A DNA stretch of 64,000 nucleotides from Futiania mangrovi (GTDB taxonomy: Bacteria; Pseudomonadota; Alphaproteobacteria; Futianiales; Futianiaceae), in assembly GCF_024158125.1 (NCBI RefSeq), contig NZ_JAMZFT010000001.1, positions 1,178,001 to 1,242,000 of the forward strand, read 5' to 3'. The notes beneath the pieces were generated by a model. The model was not told where the DNA came from. It did no database searches and saw nothing but the letters and a program-made list of their open reading frames with translations. The translations under genes were made by a program, and so were the position numbers. The first letter of the stretch is position 1. Each line of letters opens with the position of its first letter. This document shows, piece by piece, positions 7,792 through 41,655 of the stretch.

Positions 7792-8055
7792 ATGCATCCG
7801 AAAGGCGCCAGCGCGCCGCGTCCGACCCTCACGCTCCGGAGTTTGCTCATGCTTGGCGGCCTGCTTCTGGTGTTGGCGATCGCCGCGATCTACATCGTCT
7901 GCTTCTGGCTGATCGCCAATGAAGGCAAGCCGGACGAAGGCGCACACGGCATCCTTGCGCTGCGCACCGGGGCAGAGGTTCAGGCCCGGAAGGAGAAGCG
8001 AAAACCGCGAAAGAGGGGCCGCGCCGCGCGCCAGTCGCAAGCGGCAAAGCCATGA
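7792..8055 (+). CDS. Small single-pass membrane protein, unknown function
   Basis: An 87-residue protein with one strong membrane segment (LLMLGGLLLVLAIAAIYIVC) and a very basic C-terminal tail (RKEKRKPRKRGRAARQ). The stop overlaps the ATG of the glycosyltransferase (ATGA), so the two are co-translated. I do not recognise the family. By position it may be a membrane partner of the glycosyltransferase. There is no PEP motif, so it is not an exosortase substrate. Confidence 0.6.
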   Translation: MHPKGASAPRPTLTLRSLLMLGGLLLVLAIAAIYIVCFWLIANEGKPDEGAHGILALRTGAEVQARKEKRKPRKRGRAARQSQAAKP

Positions 8056-18826: not shown

Positions 18827-20121
18827 ACGGGGCCGGCGACTTCGGCGGCGAGATCCTGTTTCTCGCCCACCGCATCCCCTACCCGCCCAACAAGGGCGAG
18901 AAGATCCGTGCCTGGAACATGATCCGGCACCTTGCGCGGCTCGCGCCGATCCACATCGGTGCGCCGGTCGACGATCCCGCAGACATCGAGCACCGCGCGG
19001 CGGTCGAGGCCGTCGCGGCGAGTGCCTGCCTGCCGCAGGTCGACCCGCGCGTCCGCAAGCTCCGCGCAAGCCTCGGCCTCTTCACAGGCGAGCCACTGAC
19101 GCTCCCCTATTTCCGCAACCGCACGCTCAAGCACTGGGCAGACACGGTGCGCGCGAACCGCAAGATCGTGCTGGAGGTCGTCTATTCCTCGGGCGCCATA
19201 ACCTATTGCACGCCGGAACCGCGCCCCGGTACGGCGCGGCTTGTCGATTTCGTCGACCTCGACAGCGACAAGTGGCGCCAGTACGCGCGCACGGCGGGCC
19301 TGGCAGGCCGCATCGTCTACGGGCGCGAGGCGCAGACGCTCGCGGCGGAGGAGGTGCGCATCGCACGCTCGGCGCATGCGAGCACCTTCGTGTCGGAGCA
19401 GGAGGCCGCCCTCTTCCGCGCCGCCGCACCGGAGCTTGCCGACACCATCCACGCGGTCGGAAACGGCGTCGACATCGACTATTTCTCGCCCGCGCACAGT
19501 TTCGACAGCCCCTTCGCCGCCGCCCCGCACATCGTCTTCACGGGCGCGATGGACTATTGGGCGAACGTGGATGCGGTGCTCTGGTTCGCCAACGACATCC
19601 TGCCGCGCATCCGCGAGGAGGTGCCGCAGGCGGTGTTCGTCGTGGTGGGCTCCAACCCCGCGCCGGAAGTGTGCGCGCTTGCCGATCGCCCGGACGTGCT
19701 GGTGACGGGGCGCGTGCCTGACGTGCGCCCCTATGTCGCCTTCGCCGACGTCTGCGTCGCACCGATGCGCATCGCGCGCGGCATCCAGAACAAGGTGCTC
19801 GAGGGCATGGCCATGGGCCGGGCCGTCGTCACGACCTCCATGGGGTTCGAGGGGATAGACGCCACGCCGGGCGAAGACCTGGTCGTGGCCGACGGGGCCG
19901 ACGCGATCGCGGACGAGGTCGTGCGCCTTTTGGGCGACCCTGCGGCGCGCGGCCAGCTTGGCGATGCGGCGCGCAGCCGCGCCGTGGAATCCTTCGGCTG
20001 GGACGCACGTCTCGCCGATCTCGACCGCGTGATCGGCCTTGCGCGCGGCCGCGCGGGGCATGATCTGATGCAAGGGGCCGGCCGGCCTCTCGAAGCAGCC
20101 GCAGAGGGACAGACGACATGA
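18823..20121 (+). CDS. XrtA-associated family 4 glycosyltransferase
   Basis: A 432-residue GT-B glycosyltransferase beginning with the conserved ILFLAHRIPYPPNKGEKIR of the exosortase-linked family. The donor site region includes FTGAMDYWANVDAVLWF, PYVAFADVCVAPMRIARGIQ and NKVLEGMAMGRAVV. It is coupled to both neighbours by 4-base ATGA overlaps. It should add a sugar to the growing repeat unit on the cytoplasmic face. Confidence 0.87.
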   Translation: MNGAGDFGGEILFLAHRIPYPPNKGEKIRAWNMIRHLARLAPIHIGAPVDDPADIEHRAAVEAVAASACLPQVDPRVRKLRASLGLFTGEPLTLPYFRNRTLKHWADTVRANRKIVLEVVYSSGAITYCTPEPRPGTARLVDFVDLDSDKWRQYARTAGLAGRIVYGREAQTLAAEEVRIARSAHASTFVSEQEAALFRAAAPELADTIHAVGNGVDIDYFSPAHSFDSPFAAAPHIVFTGAMDYWANVDAVLWFANDILPRIREEVPQAVFVVVGSNPAPEVCALADRPDVLVTGRVPDVRPYVAFADVCVAPMRIARGIQNKVLEGMAMGRAVVTTSMGFEGIDATPGEDLVVADGADAIADEVVRLLGDPAARGQLGDAARSRAVESFGWDARLADLDRVIGLARGRAGHDLMQGAGRPLEAAAEGQTT

Positions 20122-21719: not shown

Positions 21720-23690
21720 ATGTGCGGCATCGCCGGACTCTTCGACCTCCGTGCAGAGCGGATGCCCGACGGCGATCGCCTCGGCCGGATGCTGCGGGCT
21801 CTTGCGCATCGCGGCCCGGACGGCGAGACGCGCCACCTCGAACCGGGTCTCGCCTTCGGCCACCGGCGCCTGGCCATCATCGACGTGGAGGGCGGCAGCC
21901 AGCCGATCTTCAACGAGGACGGCACGGCAGCCGTTCTCTTCAACGGCATGATCTACAACTACCGGACGCTGATGGACGACCTCGGCGCGCGCGGTCACCG
22001 CTTCCGTACGCGCTGCGATACCGAAACCATCGTCCACGGGTTCGAGCAGTGGGGCGCGGATGTCGTAGACCATCTCGACGGCTTCTTCGCCTTCGCGGTC
22101 TGGAACCGCAACACGCGGCAATTGCTCCTCGCACGCGACCGGTTCGGCAAGAAGCCGCTCTATTACGCAGTCGACAGCGATGGCTGGCTCGTCTTCGCGT
22201 CCGAGGTGGGCGCGATCCTAGCCGCGCTCGGCCAGGCGCCAGCGTTGCGCGCCGACGCGGTCGAGGACTATCTGGCCTTCGGCTATGTGCCGGAGCCGAA
22301 ATCCGTCTTCCAGGGCATCGAGAAGCTGCCTCCCGCGCACCGCGTGCTTCTGAAGGGCCGCGACGGCCGCATTGCTCCGGAGGCCTATTGGGATCTCCGC
22401 TTCCCCGAACGCCCCGACGACATCGACGAGGCCGCCGCCATGGCGGGCGTGCGCGAGCGTTTGGACGCAGCGGTTGCCAAGCGGCTCGTGGCGGATGTGC
22501 CCCTCGGCGCCTTCCTGTCGGGCGGGGTCGATTCCAGCGCCATCGTGGCATCGATGGCGCGCACCAGCGACCATGCTGTGCAGACTTGCGCCATGGGCTT
22601 CGACGACCCGTCCGTCGACGAGACGCGGTTCGCGCAGATGGTCGCCGACCGCTACCACACCGACCATTTCACCGAGGTGGTGAACATGGAGGCGGCGAGC
22701 CTGATCGGCACGCTGGCCCATGCCTATGGGGAGCCGTTCGCGGACGCCTCCGCCCTGCCCACCTTTCTCGTCAGCCGGCTGGCGCGCCGCCGCGTCACTG
22801 TGGCGCTGTCGGGCGACGGCGGCGACGAGGTGTTCGCGGGCTACCGCCGCTACCCCTTCCACATGAGGGAGGAGGCGCTGAAAGCCTGGGTGCCTTCCAA
22901 CATCCGCCGCCTCGTGTTCGGCCCGCTTGCCCGCCTCTACCCGGCGCTGCCGAACGCGCCGCGCTGGCTGCGCGCGCGTGCGACCTTCGAGGCGCTGAGC
23001 CTCGACACCGTCGGCGGCTTCTTCCGCGCCGTGACCATCATGCCGGACGCGGTGCGCGACGCGGTGCGGTCGCGCGACCTGGGGCGCACGCTCGCCGGCT
23101 ACCACCCTTCGGAGGTGCTGCGCACCCACGCCGACCGGGCCGGAACGGACGATGCGCTGGCGCGTGCCCAATACATCGACCTCAAGACGTGGCTTCCGGG
23201 CCAGATGCTGGTGAAGGTCGACCGGGCGAGCATGTCGAACGGGCTGGAGGTGCGGAACCCCTTCCTCGACCGCGATCTCGTGGAATGGGCCGCGCGCCTG
23301 CCCGCGCACCTGAAGGTGCAGGGCTTCTCCGGCAAGCACGTGCTGAAGCGCGCGATGGAGGAGCGTCTGCCGCGGGAGGTGCTGTACCGCCCCAAGCAGG
23401 GCTTCACCGCCCCCATAGACCGCTGGATGCGCGCGGGCCTCGACGACCGCCTGGCCGGCCTCGCCGCTTCGCCGCGCCTGCGTGAGAGCGGCCTTGTCTC
23501 GCCCGAGGGGATCGCATCCCTCGTCACCCAGCACCGCACCGGACGCGGCGATTTCAGCCGCCCCCTGTGGGCCCTGATGATGTTCGACGCCTTCCTCGAG
23601 GAAACGGCGCGGACCGTGGCGGACTCACTGACCTCCGTCGCTCCCGGGGTCCCGAAGGCTGTAGAGCGCAATCTCAGCGCCCTTGGCTGA
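21720..23690 (+). CDS. XrtA-associated amidotransferase, asparagine synthase family
   Basis: A 656-residue class II amidotransferase. The N-terminal glutaminase domain starts MCGIAGLFDLR (catalytic Cys2), with FNGMIYNYRTLMDDLG. The synthetase domain has the PP-loop LSGGVDSSAI and LSGDGGDEVFAGYRRYPFH. The family is the exosortase A-linked asparagine-synthase relative, thought to amidate a sugar or peptide component of the envelope polymer. It is the last gene of the operon, and its 3' end overlaps the convergent membrane-protein gene by 66 bases. Confidence 0.88.
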   Translation: MCGIAGLFDLRAERMPDGDRLGRMLRALAHRGPDGETRHLEPGLAFGHRRLAIIDVEGGSQPIFNEDGTAAVLFNGMIYNYRTLMDDLGARGHRFRTRCDTETIVHGFEQWGADVVDHLDGFFAFAVWNRNTRQLLLARDRFGKKPLYYAVDSDGWLVFASEVGAILAALGQAPALRADAVEDYLAFGYVPEPKSVFQGIEKLPPAHRVLLKGRDGRIAPEAYWDLRFPERPDDIDEAAAMAGVRERLDAAVAKRLVADVPLGAFLSGGVDSSAIVASMARTSDHAVQTCAMGFDDPSVDETRFAQMVADRYHTDHFTEVVNMEAASLIGTLAHAYGEPFADASALPTFLVSRLARRRVTVALSGDGGDEVFAGYRRYPFHMREEALKAWVPSNIRRLVFGPLARLYPALPNAPRWLRARATFEALSLDTVGGFFRAVTIMPDAVRDAVRSRDLGRTLAGYHPSEVLRTHADRAGTDDALARAQYIDLKTWLPGQMLVKVDRASMSNGLEVRNPFLDRDLVEWAARLPAHLKVQGFSGKHVLKRAMEERLPREVLYRPKQGFTAPIDRWMRAGLDDRLAGLAASPRLRESGLVSPEGIASLVTQHRTGRGDFSRPLWALMMFDAFLEETARTVADSLTSVAPGVPKAVERNLSALG

Positions 23691-25340
23691 CCGGTAGACC
23701 GGTTCGTAGAAGGGTTCGACCCGAAGCCCCAGCGCGGTCGCCCAAGGCACGTCATCCCCTGTCGGGCGGCCGAGGACGGCCAGCATCTGGATCCGCCGCT
23801 CAGGCGACGGCAGGTCCCATCCGACCGGCATCACGAACAGCGGCCGGCTCACCGGATCGTTCCCGGCGACGTCCGCGGGCGCATATCCTTCGGCGAACCG
23901 CAGCGGCGGATTGACCGAGACGAGCCGCGCCTCCGGTCCCGCCTGTACCGACGGAAGGTTGAGTTCCAGCGCGCCCGCCTCCCCGGCGGCCAGCAGCATG
24001 ACCTGTCGCGGGAGGGGGTCTGCCGACAGGTCCAGCGTAAGCACCCGCTCGTCCCGCCCAAGCAGGGCACCGACCGTCTCGGCCTCCGTGCGGGCGGGGG
24101 CCGTCCTTTCCCGGTGATCCAGCGCGCTACCTGCAACCAACCCGCCGAGAAGCACCAGCCCGGCCAGTGCAGGTCCCCGCACGATCAGGCTGACGCCGAC
24201 CGTCCCGCACCACAGTGCCGCGAGAACCCACCCAAGCCCGCCCACGGCGCGCCCCGCGCCGGTATCGAGCCCACCGCCGGGGACAAGGAAGAACACCAGC
24301 CACAATACCGCAGCTGCTACACCCAAGCCGTCCTCACGCCGCCACGCACCGTCGATGAGGCGCGCGAAACCGCAGACCACAACGCCATAAACCCCGATCC
24401 CGAAGGCAAGCACGGCAGCCTCCCGCGCCTTGCCGGCCGCGCTCTCGAGCAGCAGCGCAGCCCCTGCGGACGGGTCGGTCAGAAGATCCGCCACCAGCGG
24501 CCAGTCGAGCGCATAGGTACGTGCATGCAGCGCCAGAAGGGCAAGGGCGGGCGCAAACGAAGCAAGTGCGAACGCCAGACGGACCAGTGATCCCCGCAAC
24601 GCCGTCCTACCGTCCGTCAGCACCGCGGAGCGGACGCCGTCCAGCAGCGTCAGGAGAAGCAGGATGCAGGCCGCCACGGCGAACACGGGCGCCGCCGCAA
24701 GGAACATGAGCCCAAGCAGAAAGCCGGCGATCACGGCTCCCATCACGTCGGCGATCCCGCCACGCTCGCTCCACAATACGAGGAGCGCGACAAAGAGCGC
24801 GATGGCCAGCCCCTCGCCCGCCGTCAGGCCGCCGACGACCATACCCGCCGGTACCAGGGCCGCCGCGGCGGCAAACGCCCAGCCCGTGGCCTGCCCCCCG
24901 CCCCGCCGCGCGGCAAGCGCCACCGAGAGGCCCGCGACCGCCAGGATCAGCAATCCCTGGAAGATGACGGCCGCGCGCGCCGTACCGGCCACGCCAGCCG
25001 CAACCGCGGTCAGCCAATATCCGAGGCTCGATGGTTCCAGCTGGCGCGAAAGGTCGAGAAAGCGCGTCACGCTGTCGAGGTCGCCAACCCACCCATGCAG
25101 CACCAGCCGCGACACATAGGCGGCCTCCGCAACCGCGGCTCCCCCAAGCAGGCCGAGCGGGCCTGCAAGCCAGATCCCCGCGATCAGCAGAAGCAACAGG
25201 CCCCAGACCGCCGCAACGTCGAACCCGCCGGCATGCCGCCGGCGCGCATTCTCACGCGTCTGCGCAAGCCGCCCGGCCGGCGATGCGTATGGCCCAGCTG
25301 CTGTGTCGGCTCCGGAAACGGCGCCCGCCGTCGCACTCAT
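23625..25340 (-). CDS. Large polytopic membrane protein, unknown function
   Basis: A 571-residue protein with about eleven hydrophobic segments between residues 45 and 400 (for example VWGLLLLLIAGIWLAGPLGL) and a soluble C-terminal domain of about 170 residues (from RDERVLTLDLSADPLPRQ). The layout recalls GT-C glycosyltransferases, but I cannot see a clear DxD-type catalytic motif. ATG 25340 is preceded by GGGGGAGA. It lies downstream of the 38-codon reading frame and the minus-strand sigma-54-like site, and its 3' end overlaps the amidotransferase gene. Confidence 0.7.
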   Translation of the reverse strand: MSATAGAVSGADTAAGPYASPAGRLAQTRENARRRHAGGFDVAAVWGLLLLLIAGIWLAGPLGLLGGAAVAEAAYVSRLVLHGWVGDLDSVTRFLDLSRQLEPSSLGYWLTAVAAGVAGTARAAVIFQGLLILAVAGLSVALAARRGGGQATGWAFAAAAALVPAGMVVGGLTAGEGLAIALFVALLVLWSERGGIADVMGAVIAGFLLGLMFLAAAPVFAVAACILLLLTLLDGVRSAVLTDGRTALRGSLVRLAFALASFAPALALLALHARTYALDWPLVADLLTDPSAGAALLLESAAGKAREAAVLAFGIGVYGVVVCGFARLIDGAWRREDGLGVAAAVLWLVFFLVPGGGLDTGAGRAVGGLGWVLAALWCGTVGVSLIVRGPALAGLVLLGGLVAGSALDHRERTAPARTEAETVGALLGRDERVLTLDLSADPLPRQVMLLAAGEAGALELNLPSVQAGPEARLVSVNPPLRFAEGYAPADVAGNDPVSRPLFVMPVGWDLPSPERRIQMLAVLGRPTGDDVPWATALGLRVEPFYEPVYRSAKGAEIALYSLRDPGSDGGQ

Positions 25341-25426
25341 GGCTTCTCCCCCGATTCTGCAGGGGGATTATCCCATGAAAGAGGGCCCCGGACACGGGCC
25401 GGATGTGTGGGAAGCGCGCGCGCCCT

Positions 25427-25543
25427 TCAGGAGACGACCAGCGCCACCGTCAGCGCGATGGCAGCCCAGGAAACGAGCGACAGCCCCACGAGCGAGAGTA
25501 GAGAGGCCCGGGTCGACCAGCGTGACGAAGGATTCATCGCCAT
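25427..25543 (-). CDS. Candidate 38-residue membrane peptide
   Basis: A short frame encoding an 8-residue polar start (MAMNPSSR), a linker and one 20-25 residue membrane helix ending at the C-terminus (SWAAIALTVALVVS). A good Shine-Dalgarno sequence (GAGGGGCG) stands directly before the ATG. A sigma-54-like promoter lies 168 bases upstream on the same strand, and the 571-residue membrane protein gene follows 86 bases downstream. No family is recognised; a chance frame in GC-rich DNA cannot be excluded. Confidence 0.4.
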   Translation of the reverse strand: MAMNPSSRWSTRASLLSLVGLSLVSWAAIALTVALVVS

Positions 25544-25985
25544 CGCCCCTCGATGCCAAGGTCCGGTAGCAGCACGGCCAAGACCAGGACCGCCTTCATT
25601 CGCCCGCTTCGCCATGTCGCACCCCCCCGATCTTCAATCGACCCGCCGACAGCATCCCGCACCATGCACCGGCCTGGATCGCGCCTGTTTTGTGGTTCAA
25701 AAACGTTAACGCAAAGGCCATGCCAGAATGAAGCCATTCGTTTTGCGCGATAAATTCTTTTTTATATTCAATATATTAAACAATCCGCATGTCACGATCT
25801 TCAGCCTGGGAAGCCGAATCAGTCGCGTCATCCGTAAAAATCCGGATGCGCAGGCGTCATCAAACTGACATGCGTCCTTGGCGGAGAGTCCAAGGCTTCG
25901 TATCCGCGTCCATTCCGGCAATTACCGACTTGTAAAGATTATTGACATAGGATCGACTCCTGAAGGTTCGACACCCAGCTCGTCA
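25544..25985. other. Divergent intergenic region between the small membrane peptide and prsK
   Basis: About 440 bases with no convincing gene. The stretch 25690-25800 is strikingly AT-rich for this genome (for example ATTCTTTTTTATATTC near 25746). It contains the minus-strand sigma-54-like promoter at 25711-25725. It also has two small dyads, CATCCG/CGGATG near 25828-25849 and CCTTGG/CCAAGG at 25876-25895. The plus-strand promoter for prsK is probably in the AT-rich part, but I cannot assign -35/-10 boxes with confidence. Confidence 0.5.
25711..25725 (-). promoter_or_regulatory. Sigma-54-like promoter, minus strand
   Basis: Read on the minus strand, TGGCATGGCCTTTGC gives TGGCATG-N4-TTGC, matching the -24/-12 consensus at all positions but one (C to T at the sixth base). 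A transcript would start near 25698 and run into the 38-codon frame and then the 571-residue membrane protein gene. Confidence 0.6.
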
Positions 25986-28124
25986 CTGGAGGCCATCATT
26001 CTTTCGTACTTGATCGCCCTTGCCGTCTTCGGGGCGCTTTCGGTCTATCTCGCCCTCACCTGGCGGCGGGGAAACCGGCGCGGCCTGGTGCTGCTGGCGC
26101 CCGTGGTCATCACGGGAGTGTGGGCGGGACTCTACACGGCGCTGTCTTGGCTGCCGATGCTGCCGCTCTGGCTTGCGCCCGTGGCTGATACGGCACGCAC
26201 GGTATCATGGGCGCTGCTCGTCCTGCTCTCGCTGCGCTGGATGCTGCAAAGGGAGGGCGAGCCGCTCGTGCGCGACCGGCTGTTCCTCGTTCTGGCTGGC
26301 CTGGCAGTTACTGCGATCGTCTTCTCGGTACCGCCGGCCGTCCATGTGGACCTGGGCCGGGTGCCGGTCAGCATCATCACGCTGTTCCTCCTGTCCGTGG
26401 TCGGCCTGCTGCTTGTCGAGAACCTGTACCGCGCCACCCGCGGGACCTCGCGCTGGGTCTTCAAGTACCTGATCGCCGCCGCGGGCACCGTCTTCGCCTT
26501 CGATCTCTATTTCTACGCCGAGGTGCTGCTGTTCGGGCGGCTCGAGCCGTTCTCGGCGATGGCCCGGCCGATCATCGCGGCAATGGTCGCGCCGCTGCTC
26601 GTCGTGACAGCGGCGCGGGTGCGGCGATGGTCGTTCGACGTGACGATCAGCCGCGACGCGGTCCTGCACACGACGGCACTGGTCGGGTCGGGCCTCTATC
26701 TCGTTCTGGTCGCGGGCGCGGGCTACGTGCTGCGGCTGGCGGATGCGTCCTGGGGTCCCGTCCTGCAGATCGTGATCCTGGCAGGCGCGGGTCTCGTGCT
26801 CGTCATGTTGCTGATGTCGGGCCGGCTCAGGGCGCGCGCGCGGCGTTATATCTCGCGCAACTTCTTCACGCTGAAGTACGACTACCGCGCCGAGTGGCTG
26901 CGGTTCATCCGCACGCTCTCCGGCATCGGCGAGGACGATCACGAGACCAGGAACGAGACCCTGCAACAGCGGGCAGTCCATGCGCTGGCCGACGTCGTCG
27001 AGTGTTCGGGTGGCGCACTCTTCACGCGCGGACGCGGGGGCGCCTTCGTGCGCACGGCGAACTGGAACTGGTCGACGATCAAGCGCCTGCTGAGCCTGCC
27101 TGCGCCCTTCATCGAGCTTGCCGAAAGCCGCCAGCCGGTCATCGACCTCGCCGCACCGCCTTCGGCGGACGAGCGGGGACGCATCGCCGACGCCCGCGGC
27201 GCCATCGCCGGATGGCTGGAGCAACTCGACGGCGAGGCGTGGCTGCTCGTGCCGCTGGTCAGCGCCGAGGAACTCGTCGGCGTCGCCCTCCTCGGCAAGC
27301 CGCGCGACCGCCGCCCGCTCGGCTGGGAGGACCGTGACCTGTTCGAGGTGCTGGGCCCCCAGGTCGCGAGCTACCTGCGCGAGGAAGTGGCCACGCGGCG
27401 GGTCTCGGAGACGCAGGAGTTCGCCCGCCTCAACCGCAATTTCGCGTTCGTGATCCACGACCTGAAGAACCTCGTGAGCCAGCTGTCGCTCATCGTGCAG
27501 CAGGCCAAGAAACACGGCGACAATCCCGAGTTCCAGAAGGACGCGATGGAGACCGTGGCGGAATCCGTCGACAAGATGCGCGCCATGCTGGTGAAGCTGA
27601 AGGAACGGACGGACGACAAGACCGAGACCGTCGCCATCGACCTGGCCCCGGTGATCCGCAGCGTGGCCGTGAACCGCCGGCTGCTGATGCCGAATCTCGA
27701 CATCGGCACGGTGGAGGAGCCCTTGCGCTGTGATGTCGAACCGGAGGCGTTCGAGGCAATCCTCGCGAACCTGATCCAGAATGCGTTCGAGGCTGCCGGC
27801 GAGCAGGGCCGCATCTCCATCGACGCGCGCGCCGATGGGCCCCACATGTCATGCCGCGTCAGCGACACGGGCCCGGGCATGAGCGCCGACTTCATCCAGG
27901 GCGGACTTTTCCAACCGTTCCGCTCCACCAAGTCATCCGGTTTCGGCATCGGCATGTACCAGTGCCGGGAACTGGTCGAAGCCTGGGGCGGAACGCTCGA
28001 CGTCCGCTCCGAGCCGGGAGAGGGCACGACCGTCGCGGTCCGCCTGCCGCTCGCCGGCCATTCCGAGACGCCTGCCGGCCCGCCCGCAGCGGACCGTGCG
28101 GCCATGACGACTGCGGGCACATGA
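25986..28124 (+). CDS. prsK: PEP-CTERM system sensor histidine kinase PrsK
   Basis: Membrane sensor kinase of about 710 residues: eight or so N-terminal transmembrane helices (from IILSYLIALAVFGALSVYLA), a GAF-like domain, a HisKA-type site in FVIHDLKNLVSQLSLI, and an HATPase domain with NLIQNAFEAAG, DTGPGMS and SSGFGIGMYQCR. It partners with PrsR directly downstream. The start is uncertain because there is no ATG or GTG near the N-terminus: options are CTG 25986, ATT 25998 (GGAGG five bases before it), TTG 26010, or TTG 25878, which would add 36 residues. Confidence 0.85.
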   Translation: MEAIILSYLIALAVFGALSVYLALTWRRGNRRGLVLLAPVVITGVWAGLYTALSWLPMLPLWLAPVADTARTVSWALLVLLSLRWMLQREGEPLVRDRLFLVLAGLAVTAIVFSVPPAVHVDLGRVPVSIITLFLLSVVGLLLVENLYRATRGTSRWVFKYLIAAAGTVFAFDLYFYAEVLLFGRLEPFSAMARPIIAAMVAPLLVVTAARVRRWSFDVTISRDAVLHTTALVGSGLYLVLVAGAGYVLRLADASWGPVLQIVILAGAGLVLVMLLMSGRLRARARRYISRNFFTLKYDYRAEWLRFIRTLSGIGEDDHETRNETLQQRAVHALADVVECSGGALFTRGRGGAFVRTANWNWSTIKRLLSLPAPFIELAESRQPVIDLAAPPSADERGRIADARGAIAGWLEQLDGEAWLLVPLVSAEELVGVALLGKPRDRRPLGWEDRDLFEVLGPQVASYLREEVATRRVSETQEFARLNRNFAFVIHDLKNLVSQLSLIVQQAKKHGDNPEFQKDAMETVAESVDKMRAMLVKLKERTDDKTETVAIDLAPVIRSVAVNRRLLMPNLDIGTVEEPLRCDVEPEAFEAILANLIQNAFEAAGEQGRISIDARADGPHMSCRVSDTGPGMSADFIQGGLFQPFRSTKSSGFGIGMYQCRELVEAWGGTLDVRSEPGEGTTVAVRLPLAGHSETPAGPPAADRAAMTTAGT

Positions 28125-28134
28125 GGACCGACCG

Positions 28135-29556
<1,422 letters not shown>

Positions 29557-29665: not shown

Positions 29666-32464
29666 ATGACGGATCATTCCAGCCTGACCAGACGCCCGCT
29701 CCGTGCGGCCACGCTCGCCCTTGCAGCGCTTCTGGCCACGACATCCATGACCCCGGCGTTTGCCGCGGTCGATGCAAGCTCGGTGCGATATTACCAGGAA
29801 GCGCTGGAGGAGGTCGACAAGGGCAATGTCGACGCCGCCATCATCCAGCTGCGCAACGCGCTCCAGCGCGACCCTGAGAACCACGATGCCCGCCAGCTTC
29901 TGGGCAAGCTGCAACTGCAGCGCGGCGACGCGGTCTCCGCCGAGAAGGAGCTGTCGCGGGTGATCGAAAAGCGCCCGACCGACGAGGCTGAGGCGCTGCT
30001 GGGACGCGCCCTCCTTGCCCAGGGCCGCTACGAGGAGACGATCCGGCGGGTCACGCCGGACGGTCTCGACACGGAATCGACGATCGCCAAGCACGCGGTG
30101 CTGGGCGAGGCCTATCTCGCCAAGCAGGACTTCGCGAAGGCTGAAGAGCTTTACAACCGCATCGTCGAGCTGGATCCGAAGTCCGTTCAGGGCCAGTACG
30201 GGCTCGCCCGCGTCTACACGCTGGGCCGCCAGCTTCAGAAGGCGGAACGGCAGATCGACGAACTGCTGCGCGATCACCCCGAGCACGGTCCTGCATGGAT
30301 GGTCCGGGGCGAGCTGGCCATGGCCAAGGAAGACCGCCACATGGCGCTGTTTTCCTTCAACAAGGCCATCGAGCTCATGCCTCGCGACGTGAACGGCTAC
30401 ATCGCCCGCGCGCGCGCCTACCTGATGAACAACCAGATCACGCAGGCGCGCGAGGACGCGAACCGGGTGATCGAACTGCGCCCCAACAACGCACTCGGCT
30501 ACTACCTGCTGTCGGCGGCCGCATTCGCGGAGGGCGACACGGTCGCGGCGGACCAGGCCTATATCCGCGTGGCCGAACAGCTGCGCGACTTCCCGCCCGC
30601 ACTGCTTCTGGGTGCGCTCATCAAGTTCAAGATGGGTGACTTCGCCCAGTCGGAACAGCTGATGACCCGCTATGTGAATTCGGAGCCGGGCAATATGGCC
30701 GCGCGCCGGGCTCTCGCCATCGTGCGTCTGCGCGTCGACAGCCCGCAGGCCGCCATCGACCTGCTGGAACCGATCGTGCGCGACAGCCCGACCGACGTCT
30801 CCTCGATGCAGGCGCTCGCTTCCGCCTACACGCGCGTCGGCCAGTACGACAAGGCTGACGCCATGTACCGCCGCATCCGCGAGGTCGGCCGGCCGCAGGA
30901 CATCCGGCGCGCCGAAGCCGCGCAGATGCTGCTGTGCGAGGGCGGCGAACTGTCGCCGGCCGCGGCGGAGGCGTGCAGCGGCATGCTGCGCGACGACCTC
31001 GGCAAGGATATCCTGCTGGTTCTCGACTACATCAACACCGGCGATCTGGACCGGGCGCTCGCCGAGGCGGAGAAGCTCCAGACCTCCAATCCCGACAGCG
31101 AACTGGTTCTGCAGACGCTCGCAGGCGTGCATGTGGCGCGCAAGGATACCGGCAAGGCGCGGGAGATCCTGTCCGCAGCGCTGGAGAAAAACCCCGACTT
31201 CACCTCGGCCGTGGACCTGATGGAGGCCCTCGACAAGCGCGAGGGCCGGACGGGCGAGATCGAGGGACGCCTGCAGTCGCTCATTTCCCGCAGCCCGGAG
31301 AACCCCGCGCTGGCGGTGCGTCTTGCCCGCCACTACGCGGAAAACGGGCAAGGCGGGAAAGCCGCGAGCTTCCTTGCAGACAATCTCGGCCGCTATGAGC
31401 GGAGCATCCAGTACCGCGAGGCGATGGTCCGGGTGAACCTGTCGGAGAACAACCCGGCCGCCGCGCGCGAGGCCATCGCGGGCCTCGTCTCGCTGCGCCC
31501 CGAGGATGTCGACGTGCTGCGCTTCGCGCTCAACGGCTACATCCTCACCGACAATCTCGACCGCGCGGTCGAGATGGGGAAGAAGCTCGTCGAGGTCGCG
31601 CCGGACGACAACCAGCATCCGCTGGCACTGGCTCAGCTTCAGGTCCGCTCGCGCGATTTCGATGCAGCCCTCGCCACGATGAAGAAGGCACGCAACGCCT
31701 CCCCGAACGATTCGGAACTCGCCCGGACGGAGGCCAGCATCTACCTGCTGAAGAACGACATGGACGGTGCGATGTCCGTGGCCCGCGACTTCCAGTCGGT
31801 GAGCTTCGCCGACGGCAAGGAAATGGAGGCGAGCCTTCTGGCCCGCCAGGGCCGGATCGAGGACAGCATCCTCCTGCTCGAGAACGCCTTGATCGAGAAG
31901 CCGCAATCGCAGCTTGCCACCGGCCTCTACCGTGCCCGGCGCCAGGCCGGCCGCACCGAGGCGGCGGTCGAGGGTCTGAAGCAATGGCTCACCGACAACC
32001 CCGGCGACCGCGGCGCGACGACGGTGCTTGCCGCCGGGCTGCTCGAGACCGGGGCCTACCGGGATGCCGAGACGCTCTACCAGGCTCTGCTGATCGAAGA
32101 CCCGCGCAACGCCGTGCTGCTCAACAACATGGCATGGGTCCGCGGACAGCTGCGCCGTCCGGACGCGATCGACTATGCCGAGCGGGCCTACATGCTGAAG
32201 CCCGACTCCGCCCTGATCGCCGACACCTATGGCTGGCTCCTGCTGCAGCGCGACAAGGTGACCGAGGGGCTCAACATCCTCGAGGCTGCCTCCAAGGCCG
32301 CGCCCGACAATGTGGAGATCCAGGCGCACTACGGGATCGCGCTGAGCCGCGCAGGCCAGAACGAGAAGGCGATCGAGGTGCTTGAAGCGGCGCTCGACGA
32401 CGGTGCGGGCTTTGCCGAGCGCAAGCTCGCCGAGGAGACGCTGCGCCGGCTCAAGGGCAACTGA
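29666..32464 (+). CDS. prsT: PEP-CTERM system TPR-repeat protein PrsT
   Basis: A 932-residue protein made almost wholly of tetratricopeptide repeats (for example NVDAAIIQLRNALQRDPEN, NEKAIEVLEAALDDG). It belongs to the PrsT family that accompanies PrsK/PrsR and exosortase A. It carries an ordinary signal peptide (ALAALLATTSMTPAFA then AVDAS), not the lipobox Cys usual for the family, so here it looks periplasmic and soluble. It follows prsR by 109 bases and ends at a strong hairpin terminator. Confidence 0.88.
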   Translation: MTDHSSLTRRPLRAATLALAALLATTSMTPAFAAVDASSVRYYQEALEEVDKGNVDAAIIQLRNALQRDPENHDARQLLGKLQLQRGDAVSAEKELSRVIEKRPTDEAEALLGRALLAQGRYEETIRRVTPDGLDTESTIAKHAVLGEAYLAKQDFAKAEELYNRIVELDPKSVQGQYGLARVYTLGRQLQKAERQIDELLRDHPEHGPAWMVRGELAMAKEDRHMALFSFNKAIELMPRDVNGYIARARAYLMNNQITQAREDANRVIELRPNNALGYYLLSAAAFAEGDTVAADQAYIRVAEQLRDFPPALLLGALIKFKMGDFAQSEQLMTRYVNSEPGNMAARRALAIVRLRVDSPQAAIDLLEPIVRDSPTDVSSMQALASAYTRVGQYDKADAMYRRIREVGRPQDIRRAEAAQMLLCEGGELSPAAAEACSGMLRDDLGKDILLVLDYINTGDLDRALAEAEKLQTSNPDSELVLQTLAGVHVARKDTGKAREILSAALEKNPDFTSAVDLMEALDKREGRTGEIEGRLQSLISRSPENPALAVRLARHYAENGQGGKAASFLADNLGRYERSIQYREAMVRVNLSENNPAAAREAIAGLVSLRPEDVDVLRFALNGYILTDNLDRAVEMGKKLVEVAPDDNQHPLALAQLQVRSRDFDAALATMKKARNASPNDSELARTEASIYLLKNDMDGAMSVARDFQSVSFADGKEMEASLLARQGRIEDSILLLENALIEKPQSQLATGLYRARRQAGRTEAAVEGLKQWLTDNPGDRGATTVLAAGLLETGAYRDAETLYQALLIEDPRNAVLLNNMAWVRGQLRRPDAIDYAERAYMLKPDSALIADTYGWLLLQRDKVTEGLNILEAASKAAPDNVEIQAHYGIALSRAGQNEKAIEVLEAALDDGAGFAERKLAEETLRRLKGN

Positions 32465-37194: not shown

Positions 37195-40100
37195 CTAAAG
37201 CAGGATGAGACTGGTCGTATCTACTTGGTTTGCCTGAACCCCTTCGAGCGTGATCGAACCCAGCGCGCCGAAGTCGAACACGGCGTCGCCGTCGGCATTG
37301 GTGCCGAGTGCGGCCATGATGTCAGCCTTGGACGCAAGACCCGGAAGCTCGGCCACCTTGAACTCCAGCCGGTCGATGCCGGCCTCGAAGTCCACGATAC
37401 GGTCGTGCCCGATCGCGCCACGGTCAAAAACGAAGGTATCCATCACCCCATTGTGCAGAACGGTACCGGCCCCGCCCTTGAGCACGTCATTTCCGCCGCC
37501 GGCCGAGATGCGGTCCGAGCCGCGACCGCCGACGATGTAATCGTCGCCCGCGCCCGTTATCAGCGTGTCGTTCCCCTCGCCGCCAAAGACGAGGTTGATG
37601 CCGTCGCCAAGAACGATCTGGTCGTCGCCGCCGCCGGCAATCACCATCCAGTTCTCGCCATCGGTCTTCGTCAGGCCGTTCGCTTCGTCGTCAAGGATCA
37701 GCACGTCGCTGTTGGAGAGGATGCTGCCGTCGGAGAGAACGGGCATGATGTTGAACGCGGAAAGATCATCAAAATTAGACACCATATCTGGTGAATGCTC
37801 AACCAGGAACCCAAACGCCTCTAGCGAATTCACATCCCCGGTCAGAGAGAAATGGAGTCCATTGGCGGCACGCGCATAGGCGACAAACCCGCCTCCAGAT
37901 GCTGGATAACCCGGCATTGAGCCATCGTCGCGAAGCTGCTCAAGCCCGCCGGAGGCCTCAAATAGCTCCTGCCATGTATCGACAATTACTTTGTTGCCGT
38001 TTACATCTGTTATAATGTGATTAAGTACATAGCTGGAGCCAATTCGAGGATCGAATCCTTTGTCCTCGTTGGTAAAGCGACCAGCAATAAAGTTCGTTTG
38101 CCATTCCATTAGCGCGCCGGCATCTTCGAAACCCATTCGAAGTAATTGTGGAAGCGCAAGGGCCACAAAGTCCTGTTGAAAGTTCGTGATGTCAGTTCTT
38201 GTTGGCTCAAACCAACCTGCAAACTCAGCAGTCTGATGCCCGCTTTCCATATGGCGGACGATAAAGTCTTTCAAGACGTCTTCGACAACCTCTGTGATAT
38301 ACGCCCTATAAGTCGTACCTTCGGGCGAAACCCATGAGGCGTAAGCCGCTTCACGAAGGAACCATGCGTAAGAACGCACCTGCTCACCATAAAATGAGAA
38401 ATCTCCATCGAGTCGCGAGGTTCTCTGGTAGGCCTGAAGCACATTCCAAGAAGTCTGCGCTTCGAGTTGATCGAGGTAATACTGATCCCCCGTCAGCAGA
38501 TACGGCAGGTAACTGAGAGATGGCTGGTGTGCCACGTCCGGGGTCCAGCCGGTTTCCTTGTAGCTGATCGGTTCGATGCCGTGCCGGTCGAGCGTGGCAC
38601 GGGAGTCGATCCAGACTGTCGGATGGTCGGTGTACTTCGCTGCCTCGCCGGTGGCCTTGTCGATAAAGTGCCAGGGGATGTTGCCGGCCGCTTCCGCATT
38701 AGCAATCAGCGTCTGATAGGCCCGTTCGTCCATCGAATGGAGATAGAGTGTGGCCCAGTTGGGAAGCAGCCCGATATCGTTCCGGTACCCGGTTCCAGGC
38801 ATGTACTGCTGGATGTTGCCGGTCGCGTCCGTACCCCCCGAATTCGCCATCGCCGTGTCGTAGAGCTTTTGGATCTCGTTCGCGCTACCGCCCACAGCGA
38901 GGTCGTAGCTCGGGATCGCCCCGGTCTGGATCATGTAGGCGACGTCGAAGATCGTGTGGACGGGCGCGGGCTGCTTGGTCGCGAACATCTCCCGCCAGGT
39001 CGTGTGGTGATGCTGCGTCACGTCGTCGAGGAACTTCACGGTCTGCCCATTCGACGTGATCGTGGCGTCGTACTGGATCGGCACGTCGTCAGTTTCGAAC
39101 AGCCAGTTGTAGTTGAACTGCACGTTCGTGCGCACCGTGCCGTCGGCCAGCATGCGCACGTCGAACGACAGCTGGAAGTCGTCGCGCACGTCCGCGCTCA
39201 GGCGCACCTCGGTCGCGAACGGGCCCGAGATCCAGGACTTGACCGTGCCGTTGGCGATTGCGTCGGAAAGCAACTGTGCCACGTCCACCGTGGCGCTGGT
39301 GCCGTCCGCGAAGTCCATGCGCACCTGCATGTCGAGACCGGAGGCGAGAATGTCGGAGGCGTCGAGCGCGGGCGGCACAACTGACGGCTGTCCCTTGGCC
39401 AGCATCACGTCCAGCGCCTGGCCCGAGGCCGAGGCCGGAAGCTCCAGCGTCAGGATCGCGTGGCGCACGGAGCCATCCGGATGCGTCGCCTTCGCGTCAA
39501 CCTGCAGCGCATAGTCCTGCCCGCCGATGCGCGCGACGATGACGTCGCCGGGCTTCACGTCGCCCTGGGCGAACACATGGCCGAAGGTGACGACCTTGGA
39601 GGTTCCCTCGCCCAGTTGCCCGACCTGAAGCTTGAGGCCCACGATCTCGTCCGGGGCCTGCGCTTCCAGCACCTTCGGCGCGTAGATCACGCCTGACTGC
39701 TGACCCTCCAGCAGCGGCGCCGCCATCGCAACCTGAATGGCTTCGCCGCCCGACGTGCCACCGGTACCCGAGTCGGTGGTGCCCGAGCCGTCGGACACCA
39801 CGGGCTCGGCGGTGGTATCGCCCGGTACGGGCTCCGCCACCGTGCCGCTGTCGGCGGGCAGCTGGTGCACGCTGCCCTCCAGCACCTCGACCGCGACGTC
39901 GCCGAGCGCGGCAAGCATGACCGGATCCTGGGTCAGAACCAGAGACTGGATGGCAGCGGGCACCGAGGCCCCGGAGTTCCCCTGCACTTCGGACACGATG
40001 CGCAGAACGGTCCCTTCGGCCGGGGGACCGTCGAAGACGACAGCCATGTCCGGCAGTTCCGCGAAATCGACCGCCCAGGAGCCATCGGCCTGCTGCGTTC

Positions 40101-41655
40101 CACCGACGACACGCGCCTGCTGCGGCAGCCCCTGGATCACGAGACGGCCCTGCAGAGCCTCGCCCGAGAGAGAAAGACCGAGCGCGATGGACTGCAGGTC
40201 CGCGGTGCTGAAGCCCACCGCGGCGCCATCGGCGACGACGCCCTGATAATCCGCCGCCTCGGCCACATCCGTATAGACAGGACCCGAATGGGCAAGAACC
40301 TGACCCGTGGCGGAGACCATTGCCGCGGAGAGCACGAGTGCCCCCGCAAACCCGGTCGACAGCCGGCCGGCGATCGTGCCAGCCGCATCAAGTCCAAGCA
40401 TCCACCTGCCCTCCTGATCCTGAACACCACCCTGGATCGTGGCACCCAGCGGTACGCCCGCGATCCGGATCATCGCGCCCTCGGGGGGCGTACCGGACGG
40501 GTCGACGACGAGACTGAACGCCCCCTCGCCGGCAGTCAACTGTCCCGCATAGAGTCCGAGCGCGGGTTCGCTCACAGGCTCCTCCGGCGCGGGATCCTGC
40601 GCAACCGGCTCTTCCGTCACGGGCTCCTCGGTAACGGGGGGCTGTTCCGCCACGGGCTCCTCGGTAACGGGAGGCTCTTCGGTAACTGGCTCTTCCGCCA
40701 CGGGCTCCCCGGTAACGGGGGGTTCCTCGGTAACGGGCTCCTCCGCCACGGGTTCCCCGGTAACGGGGGACTCTTCCGTCACAGGTGCAGGTTCCTGGGC
40801 GACGGGTTCCTCGGCCGGGGCAGGTTCCTGGACGACAGGCTCCTCCACTGTCGGAAGCGGCGTCTGGTCCTGCACCACGAAGCGGTCACCGTGCCGCCCG
40901 TGCGTGTCGAAGCCGTATTCGAACCCCGAGGCAAGCTGGATCCTGCCCGAGGACGTCAACGACACGCCTTCGATCTCGATCCGCCCGATCTCGAGAGTTG
41001 CACCGTCCGCACCCTCGACGCGAACGGAGAGCTGGCCGAGGCCGATCGCGGCCACCGGTACCCACGCGTCGAGGCTGAACGTCTTGCGCGGTGCATGGAC
41101 GCCCGCAATGCCACTCGATGCGATCACGGCGCCGTCCAGCAGAACCTCCACGCGGTCCGCAAGGTTGGACGACGGGTTGGAGAACGTGACCGCGATCTGC
41201 GTATCGGGCGGCGTCTCCTCCACCGTGCGCGAGAGAGCCGTGTCCCCGGTCGTGGTGGACGCCTGCAGGTACGTCGTTTCGGAGAGCTGCGTCTGCGTGC
41301 CGGGAAGCGCATTCGTCTCGACGGCGCCGAAGCCCCAGCGCGTGTTGGCATGCTCGACCAGCGTATAGGCGCTGCCGGAGTCGAGGGTCACGCCCTGGTT
41401 GTCCCTGCGCACCGTATCGTCTAGCCGCGCGCGCGTGAGGTTCAGGCCACTGCCTTCCTCGCCCGAAACAACGATGCCGATGTCGGAAAAACTGGCACCG
41501 GAAACATCATACCAGCCCTTGATCGCGAATGTGCCGTCCGGAGACAGCACGTCCACCAGCGATACAGTTTCTATAAGGGTGTCACCAATATAGATATCGA
41601 CGACTTGCGGATAGGTCGCGCCGAAAACCGAAAATTCGAGCGAAAGAAACTGCAT
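37195..41655 (-). CDS. Giant RTX protein with polysaccharide-lyase-like domain, type I secretion cargo
   Basis: A 1486-residue protein with no Sec signal. Residues 1-235 hold two similar beta-sandwich copies (VDIYIGDTLIETVSL and VEVLLDGAVIASSGI), perhaps carbohydrate-binding. Residues 268-364 are a Pro/Glu/Val/Thr repeat linker. From about residue 690, TFGHVFAQGDVKPGD and HPDGSVRHAILTLEL resemble the RIFT domain of exo-rhamnogalacturonan-lyase-like (YetA/PcRGLX) proteins, followed by a probable alpha/alpha barrel. Residues 1341-1397 are RTX nonapeptides (GGEGNDTLITGAGDDYI), then an 89-residue C-terminal secretion region. It probably trims or remodels the exopolysaccharide outside the cell after export by the adjacent type I system. 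Confidence 0.8.
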   Translation of the reverse strand: MQFLSLEFSVFGATYPQVVDIYIGDTLIETVSLVDVLSPDGTFAIKGWYDVSGASFSDIGIVVSGEEGSGLNLTRARLDDTVRRDNQGVTLDSGSAYTLVEHANTRWGFGAVETNALPGTQTQLSETTYLQASTTTGDTALSRTVEETPPDTQIAVTFSNPSSNLADRVEVLLDGAVIASSGIAGVHAPRKTFSLDAWVPVAAIGLGQLSVRVEGADGATLEIGRIEIEGVSLTSSGRIQLASGFEYGFDTHGRHGDRFVVQDQTPLPTVEEPVVQEPAPAEEPVAQEPAPVTEESPVTGEPVAEEPVTEEPPVTGEPVAEEPVTEEPPVTEEPVAEQPPVTEEPVTEEPVAQDPAPEEPVSEPALGLYAGQLTAGEGAFSLVVDPSGTPPEGAMIRIAGVPLGATIQGGVQDQEGRWMLGLDAAGTIAGRLSTGFAGALVLSAAMVSATGQVLAHSGPVYTDVAEAADYQGVVADGAAVGFSTADLQSIALGLSLSGEALQGRLVIQGLPQQARVVGGTQQADGSWAVDFAELPDMAVVFDGPPAEGTVLRIVSEVQGNSGASVPAAIQSLVLTQDPVMLAALGDVAVEVLEGSVHQLPADSGTVAEPVPGDTTAEPVVSDGSGTTDSGTGGTSGGEAIQVAMAAPLLEGQQSGVIYAPKVLEAQAPDEIVGLKLQVGQLGEGTSKVVTFGHVFAQGDVKPGDVIVARIGGQDYALQVDAKATHPDGSVRHAILTLELPASASGQALDVMLAKGQPSVVPPALDASDILASGLDMQVRMDFADGTSATVDVAQLLSDAIANGTVKSWISGPFATEVRLSADVRDDFQLSFDVRMLADGTVRTNVQFNYNWLFETDDVPIQYDATITSNGQTVKFLDDVTQHHHTTWREMFATKQPAPVHTIFDVAYMIQTGAIPSYDLAVGGSANEIQKLYDTAMANSGGTDATGNIQQYMPGTGYRNDIGLLPNWATLYLHSMDERAYQTLIANAEAAGNIPWHFIDKATGEAAKYTDHPTVWIDSRATLDRHGIEPISYKETGWTPDVAHQPSLSYLPYLLTGDQYYLDQLEAQTSWNVLQAYQRTSRLDGDFSFYGEQVRSYAWFLREAAYASWVSPEGTTYRAYITEVVEDVLKDFIVRHMESGHQTAEFAGWFEPTRTDITNFQQDFVALALPQLLRMGFEDAGALMEWQTNFIAGRFTNEDKGFDPRIGSSYVLNHIITDVNGNKVIVDTWQELFEASGGLEQLRDDGSMPGYPASGGGFVAYARAANGLHFSLTGDVNSLEAFGFLVEHSPDMVSNFDDLSAFNIMPVLSDGSILSNSDVLILDDEANGLTKTDGENWMVIAGGGDDQIVLGDGINLVFGGEGNDTLITGAGDDYIVGGRGSDRISAGGGNDVLKGGAGTVLHNGVMDTFVFDRGAIGHDRIVDFEAGIDRLEFKVAELPGLASKADIMAALGTNADGDAVFDFGALGSITLEGVQANQVDTTSLILL
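40564..40854 (-). repeat. Degenerate 48-base tandem repeat encoding a Pro/Glu linker
   Basis: Residues 268-364 of the RTX protein repeat EPVAEEPVTEEPPVTG-like 16-mers built from 4-6 residue units. The DNA repeats are close copies (GGCTCCTCGGTAACGGG and variants), so the linker could vary in length between strains by slippage. Confidence 0.75.

Follow-up and report, generated by a model that had tools for sequence, protein, structure and literature searches.

The locus examined here raises the question of what a sigma-54-type promoter is doing next to the prsK and prsR genes of Futiania mangrovi when it points away from both, and which regulator and which gene it would serve. The genome (3.39 Mb) encodes RpoN, PrsK and PrsR together with about 15 PEP-CTERM genes, and the stretch of DNA that was analysed, a 64-kb window, carries a complete XrtA/PEP-CTERM exopolysaccharide locus with an export protein, a chain-length protein, a tyrosine kinase, the TIGR03016 outer-membrane protein, an ATPase, a deacetylase, FemAB and a glycosyltransferase, as well as exosortase A at 20118, an amidotransferase at 21720, PrsK at 25878, PrsR at 28135 and PrsT at 29666. 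The prsK gene (25986-28124, plus strand) encodes the XrtA/PEP-CTERM histidine kinase (TIGR02916, 595 bits, cut-off 300), and prsR (28135-29556, plus strand) encodes a sigma-54-dependent response regulator, the presumed activator (TIGR02915, 662 bits, cut-off 502.6). On the opposite strand, with the amidotransferase on one side and PrsK on the other, lies an orphan gene of 571 codons, and the intergenic region that holds the promoter elements discussed here measures 645 nt. The start of prsK has no ATG or GTG near the conserved N-terminus, and since the candidates on the plus strand are TTG 25878 and CTG 25986, an annotated start may overrun the PrsR box described below. Two further observations concern the setting: a 1486-residue protein with RTX-like calcium-binding repeats in its C-terminal part is encoded beside the XrtA locus (37195-41655, minus strand), and a second exosortase-like gene of this genome (G000:C4:111804-112574) stays under the cut-off of the XrtA model at 186 bits, with a PEP-CTERM gene about 15 kb away.

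The first-pass annotation had singled out a near-consensus TGGCATG-N4-TTGC on the minus strand as the best sigma-54-like site, and the scan agrees with it. The -24/-12 promoter CTGGCATGGCCTTTGCG (25710-25726, minus strand; core at 25725-25711, spacing GG-N10-GC) is the top-scoring site on both strands of the window, with 29.8 against 28.1 for the runner-up, its -24 GG and -12 GC are set in consensus-like flanks, and 0.07 sites of such a score are expected per 64 kb of both strands under a second-order Markov null. Transcription from it is predicted to start at about 25699. Across the genome, TGGCAYGN4TTGC occurs ten times, against two for the reversed control pattern, and three of the ten copies stand directly 5' of PEP-CTERM genes; of 17 PEP-CTERM-type frames inspected in the same genome, 14 have a sigma-54-like site close to the start.

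The decisive element, which is absent from the first-pass annotation, is a PrsR box in the same region. The motif 1 of Haft et al. is 17 nt long, ends in TTTACA and stands about 63 nt (32-92 nt) 5' of the sigma-54 motif; they proposed PrsR as its likely binder (PMC1569441). A dyad derived from the host itself, TGTMA-N8-TKACA, was rejected as the PrsR box, as it scored at chance level in this region of the window (5.7 bits, p 0.31) and was barely enriched in the genome (47 copies against 33 for the control); given this weak result, relatives were therefore examined. The motif rebuilt from the PEP-CTERM genes of ten other genomes contains a prominent inverted repeat with N7 spacing, located mostly at -78 to -91, with the consensus TGTCGGGATTCTTTACA. 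With the resulting matrix, which holds 13 boxes 5' of PEP-CTERM promoters of other genomes, TGTCAATAATCTTTACA (25931-25947, minus strand) scores 23.5 bits and is the best box of the window on both strands, the second non-overlapping match reaching 13.6 bits, and a score of this grade has p<1/3000 under a 300-nt intergenic null. The matrix is not overfitted, since it also recovers a box with a sigma-54 site 5' of PEP-CTERM genes in gammaproteobacteria and in a Nitrospira, outside its training set. The 3' TTTACA end of TGTCAATAATCTTTACA is directed at the sigma-54 site, which lies 221 nt away on the same strand, both of them beside prsK/prsR. The earlier proposal of a PrsR-controlled unit is thus well supported by the presence of both elements in one intergenic region, and it is further backed by the RpoN, PrsK, PrsR and PEP-CTERM genes of this genome and by the sigma-54 sites 5' of most of the latter. 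Judged from the sequence, a PrsR-sigma-54 promoter divergent from prsK is a well supported prediction, and it is very probably functional.

The host's own PrsR box is ill-defined, because most of its PEP-CTERM promoters have poorer boxes that do not match TGTCAATAATCTTTACA in quality. In several of them (L092, L093, L094, L099, L100 and L102) a TGTNA-N8-TNACA dyad replaces the N7 box of the relatives, which may mean that the specificity of PrsR has changed here or may be due to chance. A possible second dyad, TGTCA-N6-TGACG (25854-25869, minus strand), was noticed by eye; this weak candidate resembles TGACAGTTTGCCTGACG and CGTCAAGTTTCCTGACG, each 5' of a PEP-CTERM gene of this genome, with the spacing off by one base.

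What the promoter would transcribe is less straightforward. The first-pass annotation had proposed a 38-codon frame with a strong Shine-Dalgarno sequence and one membrane helix at the C-terminus of the product, a small membrane protein that annotation would usually miss. The helix was confirmed (best 19-residue Kyte-Doolittle mean of 2.33), as was the open frame, which runs to 25427 on the minus strand and has an in-frame ATG at 25615 (25427-25615, 62 codons), with alternatives of 38 or 36 codons from ATG 25543 or ATG 25537. The proposed 38-codon boundary is not established. Shine-Dalgarno pairing amounts to -6.4 kcal/mol for ATG 25543 and -7.0 kcal/mol for ATG 25537, and the GAGGGG is badly spaced for the former and suits the latter at least equally; the strongest sequence of the leader by far serves ATG 25615, at -13.5 kcal/mol, which lies beyond the 1st percentile (-10.2) found for random sites. 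Codon usage from 25544 to 25615 is non-coding-like (-0.83 per codon, GC3 0.43), and the last 38 codons show a GC3 of about 0.81, like that of the 571-codon gene, and a codon score of 0.0. The two lines of evidence disagree on the start, the Shine-Dalgarno sequence favouring 25615 and codon usage 25543/25537.

It is also conceivable that the promoter is real but gives the 571-codon gene a long leader, untranslated or regulatory, in which the small frame is open by chance alone; among the alternatives this one survives best, at somewhat less than even odds. Open frames are common in GC-rich DNA, and the 571-codon gene has a good Shine-Dalgarno sequence of its own (-8.6 kcal/mol). The codon score of the small frame is ambiguous: 0.0 lies between the values of genes, whose 5th percentile is 0.22, and those of off-frame sequence, whose 95th percentile is also 0.22, and 2% of genes score as low as the frame, 18% of off-frame stretches that stay open as high. 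When the effect of amino-acid composition is taken out, the score becomes -0.07 for the 36 codons and just 0.04 for the 571-codon gene. No homologue or family match was found for the peptide, nor any homologous small-frame region in the genomes and related loci searched. Against a chance frame stands the rarity of its features: a Shine-Dalgarno-led ATG opening 20-80 codons with a helix hydropathy of at least 1.9 was absent from 400 Markov leaders and from 256 gene-derived stretches and occurred twice in the window, although this rarity is overstated because the thresholds were chosen after the frame had been seen. A regulatory leader is disfavoured, as folding is no better than in shuffles (z 0.65) and no Rfam family matches the leader. 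Weighing these points, we slightly favour translation of the small frame, so that the idea of an overlooked small membrane protein keeps the support of its rarity by chance and its gene-like GC3 and loses its 38-codon limits. The frame is not a PEP-CTERM protein, ending in AAIALTVALVVS with neither a PEP motif nor a basic tail, and it is not among the TIGR02595 matches of this genome. Two frames that overlap it, of 67 and 41 codons, were discarded on account of their non-coding-like codon usage. The only other frame of the window that combines the same features (7849-8055, plus strand) comprises 68 codons with a Shine-Dalgarno sequence and an N-terminal membrane helix (MLGGLLLVLAIAAIYIVCFWLIANEG...) and has no family match.

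Downstream of the small frame, a 5-pair hairpin followed by CTCTTT (25384-25400, minus strand) precedes the next gene; as a terminator it is no better than chance, with one such hairpin found against 0.7 expected. A transcript from about 25699 would likely reach the 571-codon gene (23625-25340, minus strand), which shares 66 bp with the 3' end of the AsnB-like amidotransferase gene convergent to it. The first-pass annotation had correctly described its product as a 571-residue membrane protein, which is polytopic, and had left its role unknown; profile comparison now narrows this to a divergent GT-C protein of the PMT_2/GT39 type. No family matches the protein above its cut-off. PMT_2 is the sole Pfam match of the N-terminal half at E<10 (E 2.6, nearly the full model length), with 8.7 bits against the Pfam cut-off of 26.1. 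When compared by hhalign with an alignment of PMT_2 proteins, the protein is colinear with them over residues 28-559 (probability 44.7, E 2.3e-4, score 40.8); the controls, which were reversed and shuffled sequences and other membrane proteins, stayed at scores of at most 19 and probabilities of 0.3 or below. The lengthwise similarity thus exceeds that of the controls, and the protein shares with the PMT_2/GT39 GT-C glycosyltransferases (PF13231) a polytopic architecture with a soluble C-terminal part; it differs from them in falling below the family cut-off, in having Ala-Glu in place of Asp-Glu, the acidic pair of the first outer loop, and in having Glu-Pro-Ser-Ser-Leu in place of Lys-Pro-Pro-Leu. 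Therefore, a GT-C derivation is quite probable on the profile evidence, and glycosyltransferase activity is uncertain, since the altered acidic pair and Lys-Pro-Pro motif make a diverged or inactive GT-C protein possible. No convincing homologue was found in 84,980 genomes, 58 relatives, 385 class genomes and plasmids, where one match (E 6e-4) pointed to PMT_2, and no positional orthologue occurs in 48 other prsK loci, the relatives compared being class-level kin. Single-sequence structure prediction gave a mean pLDDT of 44.6 and no usable model.

Compared with known systems, the arrangement is familiar in its parts and unusual in its spacing and target. The promoters described by Haft et al. 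likewise combine a 17-nt box that ends in TTTACA with a -24(GG)/-12(GC) site behind it, in genomes with PrsK/PrsR and with a large non-coding upstream region, but they drive PEP-CTERM genes, which the gene downstream here is not, and their spacer is 32-92 nt against 204 nt here (PMC1569441). That range is a distribution over 99 promoters and not a mechanistic limit (PMC1569441). No good PrsR box was found at the usual distance from the sigma-54 site, where the best candidate has 1.3 bits. An IHF-like site, ATTCAATATATTA (25766-25778, plus strand), sits in the AT-rich stretch that separates box and promoter and agrees with 12 of 13 positions of WATCAANNNNTTR, a weak match. For pepA of Aquincola tertiaricarbonis RN12, RpoN dependence was shown experimentally and the -24/-12 elements were mapped (PMC9850573); that promoter is also of the RpoN type, in a genome with PrsK, PrsR and PrsT, and has a PEP-CTERM protein directly behind it, whereas the small frame and the GT-C-like protein follow here. 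As an addition to the known PrsR/sigma-54 class, with unusual spacing and a non-PEP-CTERM target, the promoter is well supported.

Autoregulation of prsK is a serious rival, or companion, of divergent activation. In three relatives (L148-L150), whose genomes encode RpoN, a PrsR box stands just 5' of the operon that holds prsK with no sigma-54 site nearby, which suggests, from sequence, an autoregulation that would not use sigma-54; their boxes (L148 5423, L149 5400 and L150 5403, on the minus strand and oriented to prsK) are strong, at about 25 bits. Here the box lies about 40-55 nt 5' of the likely prsK start, in the same orientation to prsK as in those relatives, and the 204-nt spacer is unusually long. 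It could thus be argued that the box serves mainly the autoregulation of prsK-prsR, and that the sigma-54 site answers to another enhancer-binding protein or is incidental. We consider this unlikely, as the best sigma-54 site of the 64 kb falls in the same 645-nt region and on the strand that the box faces, which chance would hardly produce, and as the window scan found no sigma-54 site directed at prsK. It is possible that a single PrsR box is used divergently by both sides. A PrsR box with a sigma-54-like site divergent from prsK (about 2179, minus strand) was also found on a contig of the gammaproteobacterium UBA5338 (L211); that promoter reads into a gene with a signal-like N-terminus, followed by a masked stretch. 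That the whole arrangement is coincidental and contains no PrsR/sigma-54 promoter, which the spacing outside the published range might suggest, is very improbable, given that each motif outscores all others of its kind in the window, that the two share one strand at a distance of 221 nt beside prsK/prsR, and that the nulls give 0.07 expected sigma-54 sites per 64 kb and p<1/3000 for the box.

We therefore return to divergent activation by PrsR as the preferred reading, namely a PrsR-activated promoter that leads to the small frame and the GT-C-like protein and joins the latter to the PEP-CTERM regulon, a reading to which we assign a probability of roughly 0.6. From the box, the sigma-54 site, the genes for RpoN, PrsK and PrsR, the open frames and the GT-C resemblance, we infer activation, co-transcription, small-frame translation and function as follows. 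Phosphorylated PrsR would bind the box at 25931-25947 and loop back to the promoter, perhaps with the AT-rich stretch bent at the IHF-like site, and would there open the RpoN polymerase sitting at 25726-25710. The transcript from near 25699 would span the frame of the single-helix peptide and then the 571-residue GT-C-like gene, so that the GT-C-like protein would join the PEP-CTERM regulon and be made alongside the PEP-CTERM proteins, presumably acting on PEP-CTERM glycosylation or on the exopolysaccharide. A more ambitious version, which we regard as doubtful, holds that a divergent promoter of its own gives the PrsK/PrsR system direct control over a two-gene unit, one gene for a single-helix peptide that is translated and one for a diverged GT-C membrane protein; the unit would be an accessory, specific to this lineage, for modifying PEP-CTERM proteins or exopolysaccharide, and the peptide would be the partner of the GT-C protein or its regulator. 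To our knowledge, very little work has addressed targets of PrsK/PrsR other than PEP-CTERM genes. With a promoter that has the canonical box beside prsK and would lead to a glycosyltransferase-like membrane protein, a connection of PEP-CTERM expression to sugar modification becomes open to test, and one defined small frame would come under one defined switch.
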